From Novipirellula galeiformis (GTDB taxonomy: Bacteria; Planctomycetota; Planctomycetia; Pirellulales; Pirellulaceae): 64,000 nucleotides of DNA. Shown here piece after piece: positions 20,058-27,753 of this stretch (positions are counted from its first letter, which is position 1; every line of letters begins with the position of its first letter). The notes below the pieces were generated by a model. The model did not search any database. It saw nothing but the letters and a program-made list of their open reading frames with translations, and was not told the origin of the DNA. The stretch is from assembly GCF_007860095.1 (NCBI RefSeq), contig NZ_SJPT01000009.1, forward strand, positions 1-64,000. Reading direction: 5' to 3'. The position numbers were made by a program, and so were the translations under genes.

Positions 20058-20882
20058 CTCCGCTGCGAAGCGGATCGGCGACCGGGACACGGCAGGGATA
20101 CAGCCGGGCGCGCGGCGCCGGGCTGTATCACGGTGCCGGGCTTTCTCACGGCGCCGAGCTCTCTTACGGCGCCGGGCTTCCTGACAACGGCGACGGGCTT
20201 TCTGACAACGGGCGACGTCATCCGGTCGCTCGCGTTGGCATCGATGTGTGATTTCTTTCGTAAAAATGGCCATTGCGGAACGTCTAACGCTTGCGGACCG
20301 GGTGATCCCCCCGGAGTGGCGAGATTTCGCTCCGCGGCGCCCCTCTTTTTTTTTGCAGCCCCCGGCAAATTGCAGCCCTCGGCAATTTACAGCCCTCGGT
20401 GGCTGATTTAGCGTCAAACGCCCCCCGGTGGGCGAGCGTGAACGCTGTCGCTCCCCCTTGCGAAGCCCGTTTCCAGTGGTGACAGGCGGCAATTCCGTTA
20501 GAAAACAGCCCCTTTTCATGACTCTCGGGCGTCCCAGGGTGTTTCCAGCTTGGTGTGACAGCAAAGTCCCTAATAGAATAGGGAATGAGCAACGGATTCG
20601 AGTACATTTAATCCAGCTCGCCGTTCCAATAATGACGCCCTTGGAAATGCACCCTTTGGCTCGCCCCCTTCTGCCGAAGCAAGGAAGGAGGGGGCTCCAG
20701 TCTCGTTCATTTCAAAGCGATCCACGATTGCGGCGGATCCGAGACAGAATGCCCCGCAGCAATCTGAATCGCGATTAGTTCGCCCATCCTTCGAATTTGA
20801 ATGTCAACATTGAGATTGGAGGAGGTGCAGACGCAATCGCCTCAGGTGTCAGCGATTCCTCATGTTTGCCGGAAACTTTGCA
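20058..20882. other. Repeat-rich gene-free region
   Basis: The left part (20112-20215) is a degenerate run of about five units of roughly 22 bp around GGCGCCGGGCTTTCTNAC. The middle (20355-20399) has a 17-bp unit, GCAGCCCYCGGCAAATT, repeated with changes. A small palindrome CCCTAATAGAATAGGG is at about 20568. Short open frames such as 20133-20411 only translate the repeats. The promoter for the DUF1549 operon should be in the right part. Confidence 0.6.
20112..20215. repeat. Degenerate short tandem repeat
   Basis: Four to five units built on GGCGCCGGGCTTTCTGACAAC follow each other directly, diverged at several positions. The array lies between the phosphatase-like gene and the DUF1549 operon. 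Confidence 0.7.
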
Positions 20883-22589
20883 ATGAAGCTCGATACTCAG
20901 CCGACCCGAACCCAGCCAACCCGAACAACGAAGCTGTCCATCGCGATAGTTCTGTTTGCTACCGCAACAGGCTTGTTGATGGTGACGCCCCGCGACGCGT
21001 TTGCTGACGATGGCGTTCCGAGCCAGGTCGCGTTGATCAACGATGCGATCGAGCAGGGTTGGCGTGATTACGAAATTCGTCCTGCTCCGGAAGTGGACGA
21101 TGCAACTTGGTGCCGCCGGATCTACTTGGACGTGATTGGCCGCATTCCAACGCTCGAAGAGCTGCACGCATTTTTGGACAGCAAGGGAAGCAACAAGCGA
21201 GCCGAGTTAGTCGAGTTGTTGCTATACGACGACAAGTACACCGAGGAGTACGCGAATCACTGGGGCACGATTTGGACGAATGTTTTGATTGGGCGCTCCG
21301 GTGGTACGGATCGGCGTTCGATGACCAGCCGCGATGGGATGCAAAAGTATCTTCGTGATGCGTTTGCCATGAACAAACCTTACAACACGATCGTCTACGA
21401 ACTTGTCACCGCCGAAGGAACAACCAAACCGGGCAGCGACAAATTCAATGGGGCGGTCAACTTCTTAGCCGACAAGGTCAACGATGATAATGGCGTGCTA
21501 GCGACCAGCAGCACGTCACGCATTTTTCTTGGTCAACAAGTGCAATGCACTCAGTGCCATAACCATCCATTCAATCAGTGGAAGCAGCAAAAGTTCTGGG
21601 AGTTCAATTCTTTCTTTCGCCAAACACGATCGCTGCGACGGTTCGTCAGTGGCACGCGAGACATCGACCACGCAGAACTCGTCAATGAAGACTTCGCGGG
21701 AGAAGCGGGTGATGCAAGCGATGCGTTGATTTTCTACGAGCTTCGCAATGGCTTGACGAAGGTCGCCTATCCCGTCTTCACCGATGGAACGGAAATCGCA
21801 AAGAGCGGTTACGTTAGCGAGGTGAATCGACGGCAAGAGCTGGGACGCTTGATGATGGAAAGCGAGTTTTTGGACAAGATGGCGGCCAACCGGATTTGGT
21901 CCCACTTCATGGGCTTTGGATTCACCAAACCGATCGATGATCTCGGACCTCATAACCCCGCATCCCATCCAGCACTGCTGGAGGACCTGGGCAAAGAATT
22001 CCGCAAGCACAGTTACGACATCAAACAATTGATCACTTGGATCACGCTCAGCCGCCCCTACAACCTCAAAGCGGTTCTGGGGCCGGCCAACGAGATCGAT
22101 GACCCTTCGATTGGCGAGATGCCCAAGTTCTCGCGTTTTTATCTTCGCCAAATGAGTGCCGAGCAACTCTACCAATCGCTGGTCTACTCCACCAATGCGA
22201 GCGGTGGCGGCAGCTATGAAGAACAAGAGCAACAGCGTCGAGTTTGGATGCAGCAATTTGTGATCGCGTTCGGAACCGACGAAGGGGACGAAGCTACGAC
22301 CTTCAACGGCTCGATCCCTCAAGCACTAATGATGTTCAACGGCGACTTGGTCAAAAATGCAACGAGCATCAAGCCGGGTAGCTTCTTGGATCGACTTTCC
22401 CAGAGCGGCCGCTCACCACGAGACCGTTTGACGGAACTGTTCATGGCTGGCGTTGCACGTCGGCCCACCCGAGACGAATTGATGATCGCCAGCAAATTGA
22501 TGGCGGCACGTAAGGGCGATGAAAAAGAAATGCTGCAAGACATGTGGTGGGCGCTCCTGAACACCAATGAATTTATCTTGCAGCACTAA
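20883..22589 (+). CDS. Secreted DUF1549/DUF1553 protein with haem-type motif
   Basis: From the ATG at 20883 the protein is 568 residues; an ATG at 20862 is also possible. The N-terminal signal segment is LSIAIVLFATATGLLMV. The DUF1549 part shows WCRRIYLDVIGRIPTLEEL and then CTQCHNHPFNQWKQ (CxxCH near residue 221), and the DUF1553 part shows FLDKMAANRIWSHFMGFGFT, SYDIKQLITWITLSRPYNL and LMMFNGDLV. These proteins are abundant in planctomycetes and usually travel with DUF1501 proteins, as here. A 15-bp in-frame tandem duplication (QPTRTQPTRT) lies in the leader. Function unknown; a cytochrome-like or metal-binding role in the periplasm is inferred from CxxCH. Confidence 0.93.
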   Translation: MKLDTQPTRTQPTRTTKLSIAIVLFATATGLLMVTPRDAFADDGVPSQVALINDAIEQGWRDYEIRPAPEVDDATWCRRIYLDVIGRIPTLEELHAFLDSKGSNKRAELVELLLYDDKYTEEYANHWGTIWTNVLIGRSGGTDRRSMTSRDGMQKYLRDAFAMNKPYNTIVYELVTAEGTTKPGSDKFNGAVNFLADKVNDDNGVLATSSTSRIFLGQQVQCTQCHNHPFNQWKQQKFWEFNSFFRQTRSLRRFVSGTRDIDHAELVNEDFAGEAGDASDALIFYELRNGLTKVAYPVFTDGTEIAKSGYVSEVNRRQELGRLMMESEFLDKMAANRIWSHFMGFGFTKPIDDLGPHNPASHPALLEDLGKEFRKHSYDIKQLITWITLSRPYNLKAVLGPANEIDDPSIGEMPKFSRFYLRQMSAEQLYQSLVYSTNASGGGSYEEQEQQRRVWMQQFVIAFGTDEGDEATTFNGSIPQALMMFNGDLVKNATSIKPGSFLDRLSQSGRSPRDRLTELFMAGVARRPTRDELMIASKLMAARKGDEKEMLQDMWWALLNTNEFILQH

Positions 22590-22753
22590 CCCTGAGACGC
22601 CTTGGGCACACCTCCGTCCAGGGCCAGGGGCAACGACATTGCCCCATGTGAAACGCAATTGATCCACCGCGAAGAGGGCATCGAGCCACTCTTCGCTTCA
22701 CCACCGCAAAGTTACCGGCTAGTAATTTAAGGCTTTTGAAAGGCACCTCTGAG

Positions 22754-24025
22754 ATGAATAACCTTTGGCACACTCCCAGCGGAATGACTCGGCGTCACTT
22801 CATGAGCCATCTCGCCGGCTCGTCCGCTGCGGCGGCCGCCTCGTTCACGATGGGCAGTTCGATTTATGCAAACGTCGACGAGCTGAAAAAGAAGCGACGC
22901 TCCGCGATCATGCTCTGGATGGGGGGCGGCCCGTCGACGATTGACATGTGGGATATGAAGCCAGCGGCGAGTAATGGCGGACCGTTTCGCCCGATCTCGA
23001 CGACCGGCGACATGCAGATTTGTGAGCACATGCCCTTGATGGCTCAACAGATGAAACACATGTCGGTCGTCCGCAGCATGTCGACGCGTGAAGCGGATCA
23101 CGAGCGTGGTCGTTACTACATGCACACCGGCTATGTTCCCAACCCCAACATCGAACACCCCAGTTACGGTTCGGTGTTGTCGCATGAATTGATGGATCAA
23201 CGCCCCGAGTTGGAGATCCCACCGTTCGTTTCCATTGGCGGCGCGAGCACGGGACCTGGTTTCTTGGGGATGGCGTGGTCGCCGTTCTCGGTCACCAGCA
23301 ACGGACGCGTTCGCAACCTCGAAATGAGCATGGAGAACTCCCGCTTGATGCAGCGGATGGCGGCGTTGAATATGATCGAACAGGACTTCGCTAAACGCAC
23401 CCGGGACTTGCCCGCCAGCGAGCATTCTAAAGTGCTGAAGAAGACGTTTGATTTGATGAGCAGCGATCAGATGAAGGCGTTCAAGGTGACCGAAGAACCC
23501 GAAGAGGTGAAGGAGCGCTACGGCACCAATGGCTTTGGACAAGGATGTTTGTTAGCTCGTCGCTTGGTCGAAGTGGGAGTCCCCTTCATCGAAGTCAACT
23601 TAGGGGGGTGGGACAACCATGCCGATCTCCACACAACGCTCAAAGACAACAAGCTGCCCATTTTGGATAAAGCGATGAGTGCCTTGGTCGAGGACCTCGA
23701 GCAACGTGGATTGTTGCAAGACACCGTGGTGATGTGGATGGGCGAATTCGGCCGCACCCCAAACATCAACGCCGGCGCGGGCCGCGATCACTTTGCACGC
23801 GCCTGGTCCTGTGTCGTCGGCGGTGCCGACATCAAGGGCGGCTTGGCGGTCGGAGCGACGAGCAGCGACGGAGCGGCGGTGGAAACCGAACCGTTCAGCG
23901 CCGAAGACTTGATGACAACCGTGGTGAAGGGACTCGGAATTTCGACTGATAAGACATTTACCAGCAAGAATGGGCGTCCCATGAAGATTGCCGGTGGTGG
24001 CAAGATCATTCGCGAGCTCGTGTAA
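22754..24025 (+). CDS. DUF1501 protein with Tat-type leader
   Basis: The 423-residue protein starts at 22754. The leader has the twin-arginine TRRHFMSHLAGSSAAAAASF (residues 11-30). The rest follows the DUF1501 family, distantly related to alkaline phosphatases/sulfatases: SAIMLWMGGGPSTIDMWDMK, NPNIEHPSYGSVLSHEL, FIEVNLGGWDNHADLH, VVMWMGEFGRTPNINAGAGRDHF. It is 164 bp downstream of its usual partner and only 8 bp upstream of an open frame for a sigma factor. The export route fits a protein folded with cofactor in the cytoplasm. Substrate unknown. Confidence 0.94.
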   Translation: MNNLWHTPSGMTRRHFMSHLAGSSAAAAASFTMGSSIYANVDELKKKRRSAIMLWMGGGPSTIDMWDMKPAASNGGPFRPISTTGDMQICEHMPLMAQQMKHMSVVRSMSTREADHERGRYYMHTGYVPNPNIEHPSYGSVLSHELMDQRPELEIPPFVSIGGASTGPGFLGMAWSPFSVTSNGRVRNLEMSMENSRLMQRMAALNMIEQDFAKRTRDLPASEHSKVLKKTFDLMSSDQMKAFKVTEEPEEVKERYGTNGFGQGCLLARRLVEVGVPFIEVNLGGWDNHADLHTTLKDNKLPILDKAMSALVEDLEQRGLLQDTVVMWMGEFGRTPNINAGAGRDHFARAWSCVVGGADIKGGLAVGATSSDGAAVETEPFSAEDLMTTVVKGLGISTDKTFTSKNGRPMKIAGGGKIIRELV

Positions 24026-24033
24026 TCGACGAA

Positions 24034-24669
24034 GTGCCAAAGTCGTCTGGATCGCAACGCAAACAAACTCACTCTACCTCGAATGCGAATCGTCGCAGCG
24101 ATGTGGAGCAAGGGGCGCATCATCACGAAGCGGCTCTCCGCGTCGGCGATCCGATGACCAACCTCACTCCGGCGGAATTGATCACGCGACATCAACGCGG
24201 TGTTTGGCGTTACCTGCGAATGCTCGGTTGCGATAACGCCACCGCAGACGACTTGACTCAAGAGACGTTTTTACGGGTTTTGAATCAAGAGGGTTTCATC
24301 CAACACAACGATGCGGCAACAGCAGGCTACCTTCGCCGAACGGCCTACAATCTGCTCGTCTCACGACATCGAAAACAAAGCCGCGTGCAAACCGTCGCCG
24401 AACCCGCCATACTTGACGAAATCTGGAATCGATGGGCAGGCAAGGATTTGACGGGCGATCGTGCAATCGATGCACTAAAAAATTGCATGGAACTGCTAAC
24501 CGAACGAGCACAAGCGGCACTGCAGATGCGTTTTAGGGATGAGATCAGTCGTGTCGACATTGGGGCGGCCTTGGGTATCTCCGATCACGGAGCGCGGAAT
24601 TTAATGCAACGAGCCAAGCAGCAGCTTCGCGACTGTATCGAGGAAAAGCTGCACGCAAAAAACATCTAA
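24034..24669 (+). CDS. ECF sigma factor linked to the DUF1501 operon
   Basis: The full frame gives 211 residues; the sigma domain begins at the ATG at 24154 (MTNLTPAELITRHQRGVWRY, 171 residues), and the first 40 residues are low-complexity, so the shorter start is likely. Region 2 shows CDNATADDLTQETFLRVLN and AGYLRRTAYNLLVSRHRK; region 4 shows LTERAQAALQMRFRDEISRV and IGAALGISDHGARNLMQRAK. The stop is followed one base later by the start of the membrane protein below, the arrangement expected of a sigma/anti-sigma pair. It could control this operon. Confidence 0.9.
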   Translation: MPKSSGSQRKQTHSTSNANRRSDVEQGAHHHEAALRVGDPMTNLTPAELITRHQRGVWRYLRMLGCDNATADDLTQETFLRVLNQEGFIQHNDAATAGYLRRTAYNLLVSRHRKQSRVQTVAEPAILDEIWNRWAGKDLTGDRAIDALKNCMELLTERAQAALQMRFRDEISRVDIGAALGISDHGARNLMQRAKQQLRDCIEEKLHAKNI

Positions 24670-24670
24670 T

Positions 24671-26755
24671 ATGAGCCACAACATCACTCCTAACGAAGAG
24701 CAAGCGCTCGACGCACTGTTGGCGGAACTGCACGGCCAACCGGCTCCCGATTTGTCTCAGCAAATCCTCGCACGATTGCAAGAAACGCCGCTGCAACCCG
24801 AGGGAGCGGTGCCCCCTTGGGACTCCGGTTCAAGCAATGTGTGCGATCACGTCCACGTGGAAGTGGGCTCAAACCGACACCACAGGACGGCCGGCAAAAG
24901 CGAAACCGTGGTCTTCTGGAAATTTGCCGTTGGCTTTGCCGCGATCGCAGCAACGGTATTGATGTTGATATGGCTGGGGCGTGATTTGGACACTCCGGCG
25001 GCTCAGACCATCGCCACCACATCACCAAGCGTCGCCCCGCCGTCGGCCCAACCCAGCAATGCAGCAAGCGACACGAAGCTGGCCCAAGACAGCTCAACAC
25101 CGCTCCCTAACCAGCCGAATCCGCAAGAGCGATCCGCCCCCAAACCGCTCAAAGGCATCCCCTTAGCCATGGAAGCGCCTTCGGAACCCCCGTTCCCGGA
25201 GGCTTCAGCCCTTTCAAAAAATGACGGCCTTTCAAAAGTCGACCGAGCCGATCGCCCGACAACCGAGGGTGTAACTCCCCCGCCTCTCCGCGAAGAGCTC
25301 AAGGCATTAACGCTTGTCGCCAAGCAAATCGACACCAATTTGCAGAACTATTGGTCATCGATTGGCATTCAAGCCACTCAGGAAGCGAGCATGGCCGAGA
25401 TCACCGAGCGGCTTTCCAACGTGCTGGGAGCCTCGGTTCCGGATACGGCAATTGACTCCGCCGAATCGTTCCAATCTTTCCTTACCGATCCCGCGGTCGC
25501 CAATGCCGTTGCCAAGCAATTCATGTCGGTCGTGACCGAAGGCGGGATCCGCGATCTCGAAGCCGAGCAACAATCACGGCTCGTTAACGAATTGGCTAAC
25601 AGTTTTCGTTCCAATCAACCGTTTGACGAAACATTGGCCGATTGGATCAGCGGCGAGAGCGACAACTCATCGCCCTGGTATTTAGCGAACGCGAGTGATG
25701 GCATCCATCCGCTGGCGCGCCGCTTGGCATCGCTAACGATGAACGTGGACCTGCGCTGCATTAAATGCCATGATTCGGTGATTGACAGCCGAGGCACGCA
25801 AAGCGAGTACTGGGCGTTCACGGGACTATTGGAGCGCAGCGTCGATCCGAAAAAGGCGAAATCTCAATTCATCTCGCCCGAGCGAACCTCGGATGAACTT
25901 GTGTTTTACGAAACCCTCGATGGGCGTCAAAAGGTGGTCGAAGCGAGCATCCCGGCAAGCTGGATTGCGGGCACAGGCGATACCGCGGCGCGTGACTTGA
26001 AACAATGGTCACAACGCGTGCTGGGATCTCGCGAACTCGCTCGCGGTGTTGTGAACTCGCTATGGCGAATGATCCATGGACGCCCCTTGCGAGGATCGGT
26101 TGTCGACATGACGACGCCACCCCATACCGAATCGCTGGGGTCGCTTGAGCAACGCTTGGTCGATGATTTGATCCAGTCACGCTTCAACCTTGGACGCTCC
26201 TTGGCATTGGTCGTTTCCGCGTCCACCACACGGCGGTCGATCCCCCTTTCGCTTCGTGCTGAGCAGATTGCGATGTCGAGCCAAGCTGAGATCGACCTTG
26301 GAAATATGTTAGTTGGTGCATTCGCAGCGGCCGCCCCAGAGCATGTCGCGTTACCGGTTGCCAAGCGAGTTCAGTTTGCGAGCCAGTCGATCGGCGTTAG
26401 CCTCGATGCGATTCGCAAGGGCACCATGCTGTTGGCCCAAACGCTCGATTCGCAAAATCCAAACCCAAGCTCCAAGGCCCCGGGATCCATGGCCCCGGGA
26501 TCCAAGGGCAAGGGTGACGCGGTCGCCGCCCAGACTGAGATTGCGATTGAACAATTTCCAGCAAAAGCAGCAGGCCCTCCCGTCCAGTGGCTGACCCTGA
26601 TCGACAACCTCGAGGGGAAAGTGGACCACCTTGCCTACCTCGTGCCGCTCGAGCGTGTCCCCGAATCGGTCAGCAAGGTGGTGGACCAGATGGTGGCTGA
26701 GGAGACGGCTCCGGCACTGATCTTGCACCGCGTTTGGTGGATGATTCATCCCTAA
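24671..26755 (+). CDS. Putative anti-sigma protein fused to a DUF1549/DUF1553-like haem-motif domain
   Basis: The 694-residue protein has a cytoplasmic N-terminus of about 78 residues (EEQALDALLAELHGQPAPDL, with the helical look of an anti-sigma domain), one membrane segment (VVFWKFAVGFAAIAATVLMLIWLG, about 79-102), a Ser/Pro/Gln-rich linker, then a long outer part. That part contains LRCIKCHDS (CxxCH near 363), a YWAFTGLLE segment, VFYETLDGRQKV, and later RELARGVVNSLWRMIHGRPL and FNLGRSLALVVSASTTRRS. These follow the order of the CxxCH, FYxL and DUF1553 segments of the separate protein at 20883. I infer a transmembrane sensor that senses a haem- or redox-linked signal and holds the sigma factor encoded one base upstream. 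A 15-bp in-frame duplication (APGSMAPGSK) is at 26475-26504. Confidence 0.75.
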   Translation: MSHNITPNEEQALDALLAELHGQPAPDLSQQILARLQETPLQPEGAVPPWDSGSSNVCDHVHVEVGSNRHHRTAGKSETVVFWKFAVGFAAIAATVLMLIWLGRDLDTPAAQTIATTSPSVAPPSAQPSNAASDTKLAQDSSTPLPNQPNPQERSAPKPLKGIPLAMEAPSEPPFPEASALSKNDGLSKVDRADRPTTEGVTPPPLREELKALTLVAKQIDTNLQNYWSSIGIQATQEASMAEITERLSNVLGASVPDTAIDSAESFQSFLTDPAVANAVAKQFMSVVTEGGIRDLEAEQQSRLVNELANSFRSNQPFDETLADWISGESDNSSPWYLANASDGIHPLARRLASLTMNVDLRCIKCHDSVIDSRGTQSEYWAFTGLLERSVDPKKAKSQFISPERTSDELVFYETLDGRQKVVEASIPASWIAGTGDTAARDLKQWSQRVLGSRELARGVVNSLWRMIHGRPLRGSVVDMTTPPHTESLGSLEQRLVDDLIQSRFNLGRSLALVVSASTTRRSIPLSLRAEQIAMSSQAEIDLGNMLVGAFAAAAPEHVALPVAKRVQFASQSIGVSLDAIRKGTMLLAQTLDSQNPNPSSKAPGSMAPGSKGKGDAVAAQTEIAIEQFPAKAAGPPVQWLTLIDNLEGKVDHLAYLVPLERVPESVSKVVDQMVAEETAPALILHRVWWMIHP

Positions 26756-26894: not shown

Positions 26895-27006
26895 CACAGC
26901 GGAGCCCAGGCCACGCGACTTTGCAAGTTTGAGTATGATAGAGCGTCCGCGGTCCACGTGACCGCGTGATTCTTTCCCTCTATTCTTGCAAAGGTCTAGG
27001 ACTGAC

Positions 27007-27753
27007 ATGGGCATCCGGTTCGCCTGCCATGTTTGCAACAAGAAACTCAATATCAAGAGTGAACTCGCGGGCAAACGTGGCGTCTGCCCAGCGTGTTCAT
27101 CGCGATTCCGCATCCCGTTAGAAGACGCCTTAGCCTCGTTTCCGGTTGAAACGCGGCTGACACCGACTGCCGCGCAATCGCAATCGGGTGCTCCGCAGCC
27201 CGAGTCTCGCTCCGATTCAGGCCGCTCCGATTCAGGCCGCTCCGTTGACGATTCCTCGAGCGACGATATCGCTGCGGAGGTGCCGCTTGCCGCATCAAGT
27301 CCGAACGTTTCCAAAGCAAGTTCTCCCAACTCCATTTTTGACGGCGAATCGACTTGGTATGTTCGGCCGCCAAGTGGCGGCCAATACGGTCCGGCGGGCG
27401 AAGATATTTTTCGGGAGTGGATAACCGAAGGACGCGTCGCAGCGACGGCACTGGTATGGCGAGATGGATGGGCGGAGTGGCGTGAAGCCATTGAAGTTCT
27501 GCCGCAATTGACCCACCGCAATGCTTCGCCGCTGAGCATCGAGCCTCGAAACCACGCCGTTGAAGCCAACGGATCGGAGCCGAGAATGGCCCCTTCGAGC
27601 ACCCCGACGGAATCTCCGGGAAAGGTTTATGGAAACCTTCCTATCGGAGCGATCCAGCGGAAGCGTTTTCTACAACGAGCGGCAACAATCACGGTACTTT
27701 CGCTGGTTGCAATCGGATTGGTCGCGGCGCTATTAGCGGTAGCAGGCCGCTAG
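27007..27753 (+). CDS. Zinc-ribbon / GYF_2 domain membrane protein
   Basis: The 248-residue protein begins with a small zinc ribbon (CHVCNKK ... CPACSSRF, cysteines at about 7, 10, 26 and 29). A disordered Ser/Asp-rich linker follows, with a 15-bp perfect in-frame tandem duplication (SDSGRSDSGRS, DNA 27211-27240). The GYF_2 (DUF4339) domain is recognisable as WYVRPPSGGQYGPAGEDIF then VWRDGWAEWREAIEV. A single C-terminal membrane helix (ATITVLSLVAIGLVAALLAV) ends the protein, giving a tail-anchored layout with a cytoplasmic adaptor domain. GYF_2 domains are thought to bind proline-rich peptides; the partner is unknown. Confidence 0.85.
   Translation: MGIRFACHVCNKKLNIKSELAGKRGVCPACSSRFRIPLEDALASFPVETRLTPTAAQSQSGAPQPESRSDSGRSDSGRSVDDSSSDDIAAEVPLAASSPNVSKASSPNSIFDGESTWYVRPPSGGQYGPAGEDIFREWITEGRVAATALVWRDGWAEWREAIEVLPQLTHRNASPLSIEPRNHAVEANGSEPRMAPSSTPTESPGKVYGNLPIGAIQRKRFLQRAATITVLSLVAIGLVAALLAVAGR

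Follow-up and report, generated by a model that had tools for sequence, protein, structure and literature searches.

A conserved σ factor unit of Novipirellula galeiformis with a putative membrane anti-σ factor whose outer domain is homologous to the DUF1549/DUF1553 protein encoded beside it

The subject of this report is a group of four genes of the planctomycete Novipirellula galeiformis, located at positions 20883–26755 of a stretch of 64,000 nucleotides (hereafter the window; contig NZ_SJPT01000009.1, forward strand) from a genome of 7.4 Mb. The genes lie in the same direction and encode a free DUF1549/DUF1553 protein, a DUF1501 protein, an extracytoplasmic function (ECF) σ factor and a membrane protein of 694 residues. 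We consider it quite probable that they constitute an autoregulated σ/anti-σ unit in which the membrane anti-σ factor bears a sensor that is a diverged paralogue of the target protein. In particular, sequence comparison makes it likely that the 694-residue protein is the anti-σ partner and that the operon containing the free DUF1549/DUF1553 gene is the target. The coordinates, common strand and short intergenic gaps given in an earlier note on this DNA were all correct: 8 bp separate the stop of the DUF1501 gene (24025) from the GTG start of the σ gene (24034), and 1 bp separates the stop of the σ gene (24669) from the ATG of the membrane protein gene (24671). The features of the unit are as follows.

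20600–20625, plus strand: predicted σ-dependent promoter, GAGTAC (−35-like), 16 bases, CGTT (−10-like), 258 bp 5′ of the ATG at 20883
20883–22589, plus strand: free DUF1549/DUF1553 protein (Pfam), 568 residues, with CxxCH at residues 222–226; predicted target of the σ factor
22754–24025, plus strand: DUF1501 protein, 423 residues (Pfam DUF1501, 360.7 bits)
24034–24669, plus strand: ECF σ factor, 211 residues from the GTG (Pfam sigma-70 regions 2 and 4; TIGR02937)
24671–26755, plus strand: putative anti-σ factor, 694 residues, with an N-terminal module, a linker, one predicted transmembrane helix and an outer DUF1549/DUF1553-type domain
24692–24778, plus strand: N-terminal module, residues 8–36, putative σ-binding domain (alignment; two helices in the AlphaFold 2 [AF2] model)
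24908–24982, plus strand: predicted transmembrane helix, residues 80–104 (hydropathy and AF2)
25307–26752, plus strand: outer DUF1549/DUF1553-type domain, about residues 213–694 (hhalign against the free protein)
25757–25771, plus strand: CxxCH of the membrane protein, residues 363–367

The σ factor matches the Pfam families Sigma70_r2 (42.9 bits) and Sigma70_r4_2 (30.8 bits), both above cut-off, and the NCBIfam model TIGR02937 (62.8 bits, cut-off 42.9). Regions σ2 and σ4 are the only ones found, which is what defines an ECF (group 4) σ factor. The protein falls short of TIGR02989, a Rhodopirellula/Verrucomicrobium ECF subfamily (82 bits, curated cut-off 124.55), a cut-off that three other σ genes of the same genome do exceed. 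Its conserved part begins at about residue 43, and its closest relative among the named matches found, from which the window's own record was perhaps excluded, is from Rhodopirellula maiorica SM1 (79% identity).

Comparison of genomes shows that the gene order is conserved. A match to the σ factor at E ≤ 1e-15 was present in 118 of 149 genomes of the family Pirellulaceae, as a single copy in all but four. We compared 60 family loci (62 minus L043, which has no σ gene, and L140, which meets a contig end), all with a readable open reading frame (ORF) downstream of the σ gene. This frame encoded a DUF1549-type protein at 58 of the 60 loci, with CxxCH in 58 of 58. At the two exceptions a YfbK/vWA domain (L115) or a DUF4349 domain (L154) stands behind the same N-terminal module, and the σ matches there are of 38–40% identity. 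Both the free gene and the DUF1501 gene lay upstream in 38 of the 53 family loci with at least 3.5 kb of upstream sequence. Among named loci (the best 80 by σ similarity), a DUF1549-type domain followed the σ gene in all 72 with more than 1.5 kb, and the DUF1501 gene and the free gene were each present upstream in 61 of the 67 with more than 3 kb upstream. That gene order and CxxCH are both conserved across genera takes the observation beyond chance. The earlier note had put forward the membrane protein as a putative anti-σ partner, and its near-constant position next to the σ factor, together with the comparative evidence described below, makes that role likely.

Three loci (L123, L124 and L125) have the order σ factor, membrane DUF1549 protein, DUF1501 protein, as if the membrane protein had replaced the free one beside DUF1501. 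In Rhodopirellula baltica BR-MGV (L243) the gene for the membrane protein is broken into two frames of 366 and 446 codons. The free gene itself has an orthologue at E ≤ 1e-150 in at least 130 of the 149 family genomes, and in other genomes of the family it is unlinked from the σ gene. A table relating the presence and absence of the σ gene to that of the free gene was set aside, because at most nine candidates were scored per genome and the table missed one genome (G022) in which the gene exists.

The outer part of the membrane protein is, by sequence and profile comparison, a DUF1549/DUF1553 homologue. The earlier note had pointed to a motif order (CxxCH, FYE.DG, VN..W) common to the two proteins, and the free protein does have the corresponding CTQCH, FYELRNG and ANRIW; the note's further claim, that the sensor shares its fold with DUF1549/DUF1553 proteins, gains from a match that extends far beyond these motifs. 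When a profile of 54 membrane proteins was aligned with one of 37 free proteins using hhalign, the probability was 100 and E was 3e-131 over 500 columns, the PSD1 part included, a result that rules out mere motif coincidence as the cause of the resemblance. (The 54 are those of the 60 that remained after L115, L154, L163, L113, L109 and L122 were left out.) The 694-residue protein itself can be aligned with the free protein over about 480 residues. Searched against Pfam, as the note had suggested, it matches PSCyt2/DUF1549 at residues 220–389 with 30.2 bits, a borderline pass (cut-off 29.8); DUF1553 (13.6 bits) and the Pfam anti-σ families (no match) came out negative, and NCBIfam adds no match. 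The free protein scores 158.6 bits for PSCyt2/DUF1549 and 84.8 bits for PSD1/DUF1553. Orthologues of the membrane protein in other genera are nearer to the families (PSCyt2/PSD1 147.9/108.9 bits in L111, 134.8/100.7 in L110 and 128/97 in L113). Nine DUF1549-type relatives that we scanned gave 36–153 bits for DUF1549, with the DUF1553 cut-off passed by L110, L111, L113, L128 and L387 and failed by L118, L119, L132 and L146. Downstream proteins of other genera match the window's free protein with E values down to 2e-164.

In a tree of 64 rows (62 different), the 39 rows of membrane and free proteins stood apart from 25 other DUF1549 rows (23 different) with support 95/83, and 17 membrane and 14 free rows formed a single group (support 97/98). 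Eight of the 25 membrane rows, the window copy among them, fell outside the group that joins the free proteins; several are on long branches, and their position is unsure. The data are compatible with a single origin of the membrane proteins but do not establish it (approximately unbiased test, p-AU 0.41). The simplest reading would be that the operon's free gene was duplicated once and that, in some genera, the copy that became the sensor has since decayed. Foldseek searches of the membrane and free models (mean confidence of the free model, pLDDT 84.5) against the Protein Data Bank (PDB) gave no match at E ≤ 0.001; weak matches of the free model to phycobilisome-linker structures had E 0.35 or worse, with TM scores of at most 0.41 on the target. 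A sequence search of the PDB found no solved relative.

Among the 54 aligned membrane proteins, whose identity to the window protein ranges from 14 to 61%, the only invariant columns are the two cysteines and the histidine of CxxCH. The motif is present in all 54 membrane proteins and in all 37 free proteins, and the predicted topology places it outside the membrane. That these are the sole invariant residues fits a haem-c or metal site, and the CxxCH of the outer domain probably carries a c-type haem. A second histidine, His 653 in the numbering of the window protein, recurs in 51 of the 54 membrane proteins, whereas no corresponding residue figures among those conserved in the free proteins; it is a candidate for a second haem ligand or for an interface residue specific to the sensor. 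We hypothesize that the membrane protein senses redox state or haem. A competing reading, which we take seriously and place somewhat below an even chance, is that the outer domain binds either the free DUF1549 protein or some ligand or substrate belonging to the DUF1549/DUF1501 pathway, with no redox or haem sensing and with CxxCH in a structural role. The window copy keeps little beyond CxxCH, which would fit a loss of enzymatic activity, and RsgI sensors are described in the available text of PMC12203970 as acting through binding of substrate (polysaccharide). Against this, the retention of CxxCH in 54 of 54 proteins at 14–61% identity would be unlikely for a merely structural motif, His 653 is nearly as constant, and two matches to the cytochrome-c assembly family PF01578 in the genome make haem-c possible.

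At the N-terminus of the membrane proteins, ahead of the transmembrane helix, lies a module of about 29 residues with the consensus D..LD..L.E.LGG..PPDLS..IL..L, in which P19 and D20 are invariant in 49 rows (the alignment holds 49 of the 60 family proteins, rows without ungapped spacing having been left out). The AF2 model of the 694-residue protein has helices at residues 7–21 and 29–38 (moderate confidence), followed by a low-confidence segment and then by the membrane helix at residues 80–104; when the first 260 residues were scanned, the strongest hydrophobic stretch started at residue 85. A profile built from the 49 family proteins (so that hits among these are in-sample) found the module in 37 of 294 genomes of the phylum, three of them family members, and in 60 of 196 genomes of the order Pirellulales. 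An ECF σ gene lay directly upstream on the same strand in all 40 loci fetched for the best 42 module matches outside the family (the two others being G349:C103 and G383:C259; weaker matches were also left out), and one preceded the module in all 20 loci fetched from the rest of the order, whose other families gave 38 matches. Module and σ gene are thus paired in loci well beyond the family. A second, weak module match in L203 (E 0.006) had no σ gene upstream. In the window's own genome the profile search found the module in the window copy only, and it was absent from the other neighbourhoods examined (L047–L078).

The outer domains that follow the module are diverse. Of 20 examined among the 40 phylum proteins, three have FecR, three leucine-rich repeats, two YfbK/vWA, two EF-hand and one HEAT domains behind the module, and nine have no Pfam domain above cut-off there. 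The order sample (n = 20) comprises 11 DUF1549-type and 9 YfbK/vWA sensors. The FecR domain that follows the module in L205, L216 and L225 is known as the periplasmic portion of a classical regulator of ECF σ factors, and its presence suggests independently that the module is a σ-binding piece. Indeed, a constant piece with a constant partner gene and a variable outer domain is the pattern expected of a σ-binding domain, and we regard the module as a strong candidate for a new anti-σ domain. Neither the module with its interchangeable outer domains nor the promoter had figured in the earlier note; both are new. Four proteins (L116, L121, L136 and L224) carry the module as a tandem duplicate within one chain, in the manner of a self-contained binding peptide. 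The N-terminal part of L403 matches DUF3379 below threshold (27.2 bits, where 33.2 would be needed), and this family may be remotely related to the module and represent it in other phyla.

These findings bear on three further readings. The membrane protein could be an anchored DUF1549/DUF1553 protein that serves as an enzyme or as a structural component and lies beside the σ gene only as one of its targets. The domain is nearly canonical in L110, L111, L113 and L139 and could still be active there, and in the three loci with DUF1501 directly after the membrane protein it stands where the free protein would be. An enzyme role common to all these proteins leaves unexplained, however, why outside the family, where 60 of 60 loci examined have the ECF σ gene, the module also occurs with unrelated outer domains (YfbK, FecR, leucine-rich repeats and EF-hand), or why the window protein keeps the module when its domain is degenerate (PSD1 13.6 bits); we therefore hold this reading to be unlikely. 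Slightly less probable again is that the membrane protein is a positive partner, which delivers or activates the σ factor in place of inhibiting it: the sign of control is not fixed by sequence, and FecR-type proteins are also needed for the activity of their σ factors. Finally, chance proximity of a decayed paralogue, which the bare pass of the window copy at the DUF1549 cut-off might suggest, is contradicted by an order kept across dozens of genera, by the conservation of CxxCH and by the pairing of module and σ gene within the order, and is very improbable.

A further element of the unit is a predicted promoter. The pattern GAGTAC-N14–17-CGYY has a single match on both strands of the 64-kb window, at 20600–20625, and across the family it lies before the first gene of the unit in 39 of the 60 loci, compared with 1 of 60 on the reverse strand. 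Spaced word pairs were sought there as well: GAGTA or AGTAC followed 15–17 bases on by CGTT or TCGC was found in 3–6 of the 38 loci in which the free gene comes first and in 3–5 of the 22 in which the σ gene comes first, with at most 3 in shuffled sequences. A looser pattern matched 38 of the 60 loci; on the reverse strand it matched 1, and across 20 shuffles 0–7.

Comparison shows, moreover, that the motif is coupled to the presence of the σ factor. For free genes unlinked from a σ gene, the motif was present in the 1.1 kb taken for each gene in 17 of 20 genomes with the σ factor and in 1 of 20 without it, that is, with no match at 1e-15 (Fisher p 4e-7 by genome), and the lone motif in the genomes without it lies inside a coding part. 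Counted by genus, the figures are 8 of 11 with and 1 of 11 without (p 0.008), one genus being on both sides. These genes were chosen before the motif search (20 of at least 24 with the σ factor, 20 of 24 without). Among loci from the order's other families, the motif stood upstream in 10 of 11 with a DUF1549-type sensor and in 0 of 9 with a YfbK-type sensor; the DUF1549-type loci include two from a single genome and a third from the same genus, and one site ends in the weaker CGCC. Outside the order, where the sensors are of other kinds, 3 of 40 loci had it. Predicted promoter, σ factor and sensor type vary together. In the window's own genome a second pair of DUF1549/DUF1553 and DUF1501 genes (L077, 3603–6705) has GAGTAC-N16-CGTT about 242 bp before its first gene; as a lead only, the σ factor of the unit may control this pair too.

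Several observations weigh against an autoregulated unit with a paralogous sensor. The window's membrane protein fails PSD1/DUF1553 (13.6 bits at residues 456–523, Pfam cut-off 28.5), and this copy is strongly diverged and stands outside the 31-row group of membrane and free proteins in the tree. The module matches no Pfam anti-σ family in the proteins scanned, the zinc motif Hx3Cx2C occurs in the first 170 residues of none of the 54 membrane proteins, and the module profile misses 5 of the 60 family proteins at E 0.001 (53 in-sample) and 13 of the 72 named ones. As to the promoter, the motif was not found in 21 of the 60 family loci (one with only 150 bases searched, two with other sensors) or before the unlinked free gene in 3 of the 20 genomes with the σ factor, and among the loci in which the σ gene comes first an unrelated word pair also reached 5, the same count as the motif. 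Six of the 39 promoter sites lie 7–108 bases inside the longest ORF, so that the real start would be later there. Genome-wide, YGAGTACW-N15–16-CGTT has 10 sites in the window's genome, the one before the L077 pair included, compared with 9 for the reversed control, and 11 compared with 6 and 9 compared with 8 in two congeners. The pattern alone thus predicts little, a large regulon is rejected, and the weak enrichment fits a small one. In all of these counts, finally, genomes of one genus are not independent of one another.

In the mechanism that we infer for the σ/anti-σ unit, the cytoplasmic module, with its two helices and PPDLS-type turn, would bind the ECF σ factor and hold it at the membrane when no signal is present. 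The outer domain, as a copy of the secreted DUF1549/DUF1553 protein, would report the same substrate, partner or redox state by way of CxxCH. A change in the outer domain, through its shape or through proteolysis, would free the σ factor, which would then transcribe the operon from the GAGTAC-N16-CGTT promoter. The free DUF1549/DUF1553 protein and the DUF1501 protein would rise together with the σ factor and its inhibitor, closing a feedback loop.

Some details of the locus may be added. The free DUF1549/DUF1553 gene has an earlier in-frame ATG at 20862, and the DUF1501 gene has an in-frame TTG at 22736 and a sub-threshold match to a twin-arginine translocation (Tat) signal. Window positions 26986–27753, after the unit, encode a GYF_2 protein in which a zinc ribbon is matched below threshold, and a GYF_2 gene occupies the same position in L040, L041 and L149.

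How does the unit compare with known systems? The earlier note knew of no named system of this kind, which stands for this family but not for the principle: in BlaR1 the outer sensor is likewise of the same kind as the regulated enzyme, and the same principle is seen in RsgI, the partner of SigI, a member of a different σ family. RsgI of Clostridium thermocellum is described in the available text of PMC12203970 as a membrane anti-σ factor in which one helix joins a cytoplasmic domain to a divergent outer sensor (which may be a carbohydrate-binding module or a glycoside hydrolase domain), and as controlling cellulosome genes. Like SigI/RsgI, the unit described here would have a membrane anti-σ factor with an outer sensor of the regulated protein's kind; unlike RsgI, the sensor is a DUF1549/DUF1553 domain with CxxCH, and no RsgI Pfam match was found in the proteins scanned. 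FecI/FecR resembles the unit in having an ECF σ factor beside a membrane protein that carries a signal domain on its outer side, whereas the window protein has no match to FecR (PF04773) and no TonB receptor was present among the seven window proteins scanned with Pfam, no wider search having been made.

Three classes of anti-σ factor are distinguished in the part of PMC7406223 available to us, class I having four helices and, in about half of its members, Hx3Cx2C. The window protein shares with class I (RseA, RsiW and ChrR) its presumed role and its position beside the σ factor, whereas four helices and Hx3Cx2C are not seen in it (the AF2 model being of moderate confidence). Any resemblance of the module to class II (CnrY and NepR) is anatomical only: the single-chain AF2 model of the window protein predicts two helices before the membrane helix. 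In CnrH/CnrY, two helices of CnrY embrace σ2 and σ4, as stated in the accessible portion of PMC4598750; the PPDLS turn and the large outer sensor of the window protein are not mentioned for CnrY in that portion.

In Rhodopirellula baltica, the ECF σ factor RB10049 has been proposed as regulator of the PSD1–PSC2 protein RB10051, and RB10049 is up-regulated in heat, cold and salt (PMC2754498, in the text available, citing Studholme et al.). An ECF σ factor is thus proposed for a DUF1549/DUF1553 protein in both cases, whereas neither an anti-σ role nor a fused sensor is described in that text. We considered whether RB10049/RB10051 is the present unit and concluded that it is probably another locus, RB10049 having 217 residues compared with a 194-codon frame in the Rhodopirellula europaea 6C orthologue (L257). 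Because of this mismatch in length, the R. baltica transcriptome result was not used as evidence. A survey of the literature available, by title and start of abstract, found no description of the unit or the module; an earlier mention in the planctomycete ECF papers of Jogler 2012 and Wiegand 2020 is possible.

We take the conserved, promoter-linked σ/anti-σ unit, with a putative sensor paralogous to the probable target, to be real as far as comparison of genomes can tell. Planctomycetes have many DUF1549, DUF1553 and DUF1501 proteins, for which there is no explanation yet (the present genome has 54 DUF1553 matches), and a 2017 paper states, in the text available, that nothing is known of the function of PSCyt genes (PMC5615132). 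A conserved σ factor with a predicted promoter, seemingly in control of one of these proteins, and a sensor apparently derived from that protein together offer a way into its pathway, for whatever factor releases the σ factor should be the pathway's signal. The recurring module, meanwhile, would allow planctomycete ECF σ factors that lack a recognised inhibitor to be paired with one. In a bolder reading, for and against which we see the case as evenly balanced, a very short and hitherto undescribed anti-σ domain (about 29 residues, two helices and a PPDLS turn) serves as a general plug for unlike planctomycete sensors, one of which, in the Pirellulales, is a decoy copy, carrying c-type haem, of the product of the σ-controlled gene. 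If this is true, the cell would measure its own DUF1549/DUF1553 chemistry by means of a decoy copy of the protein.

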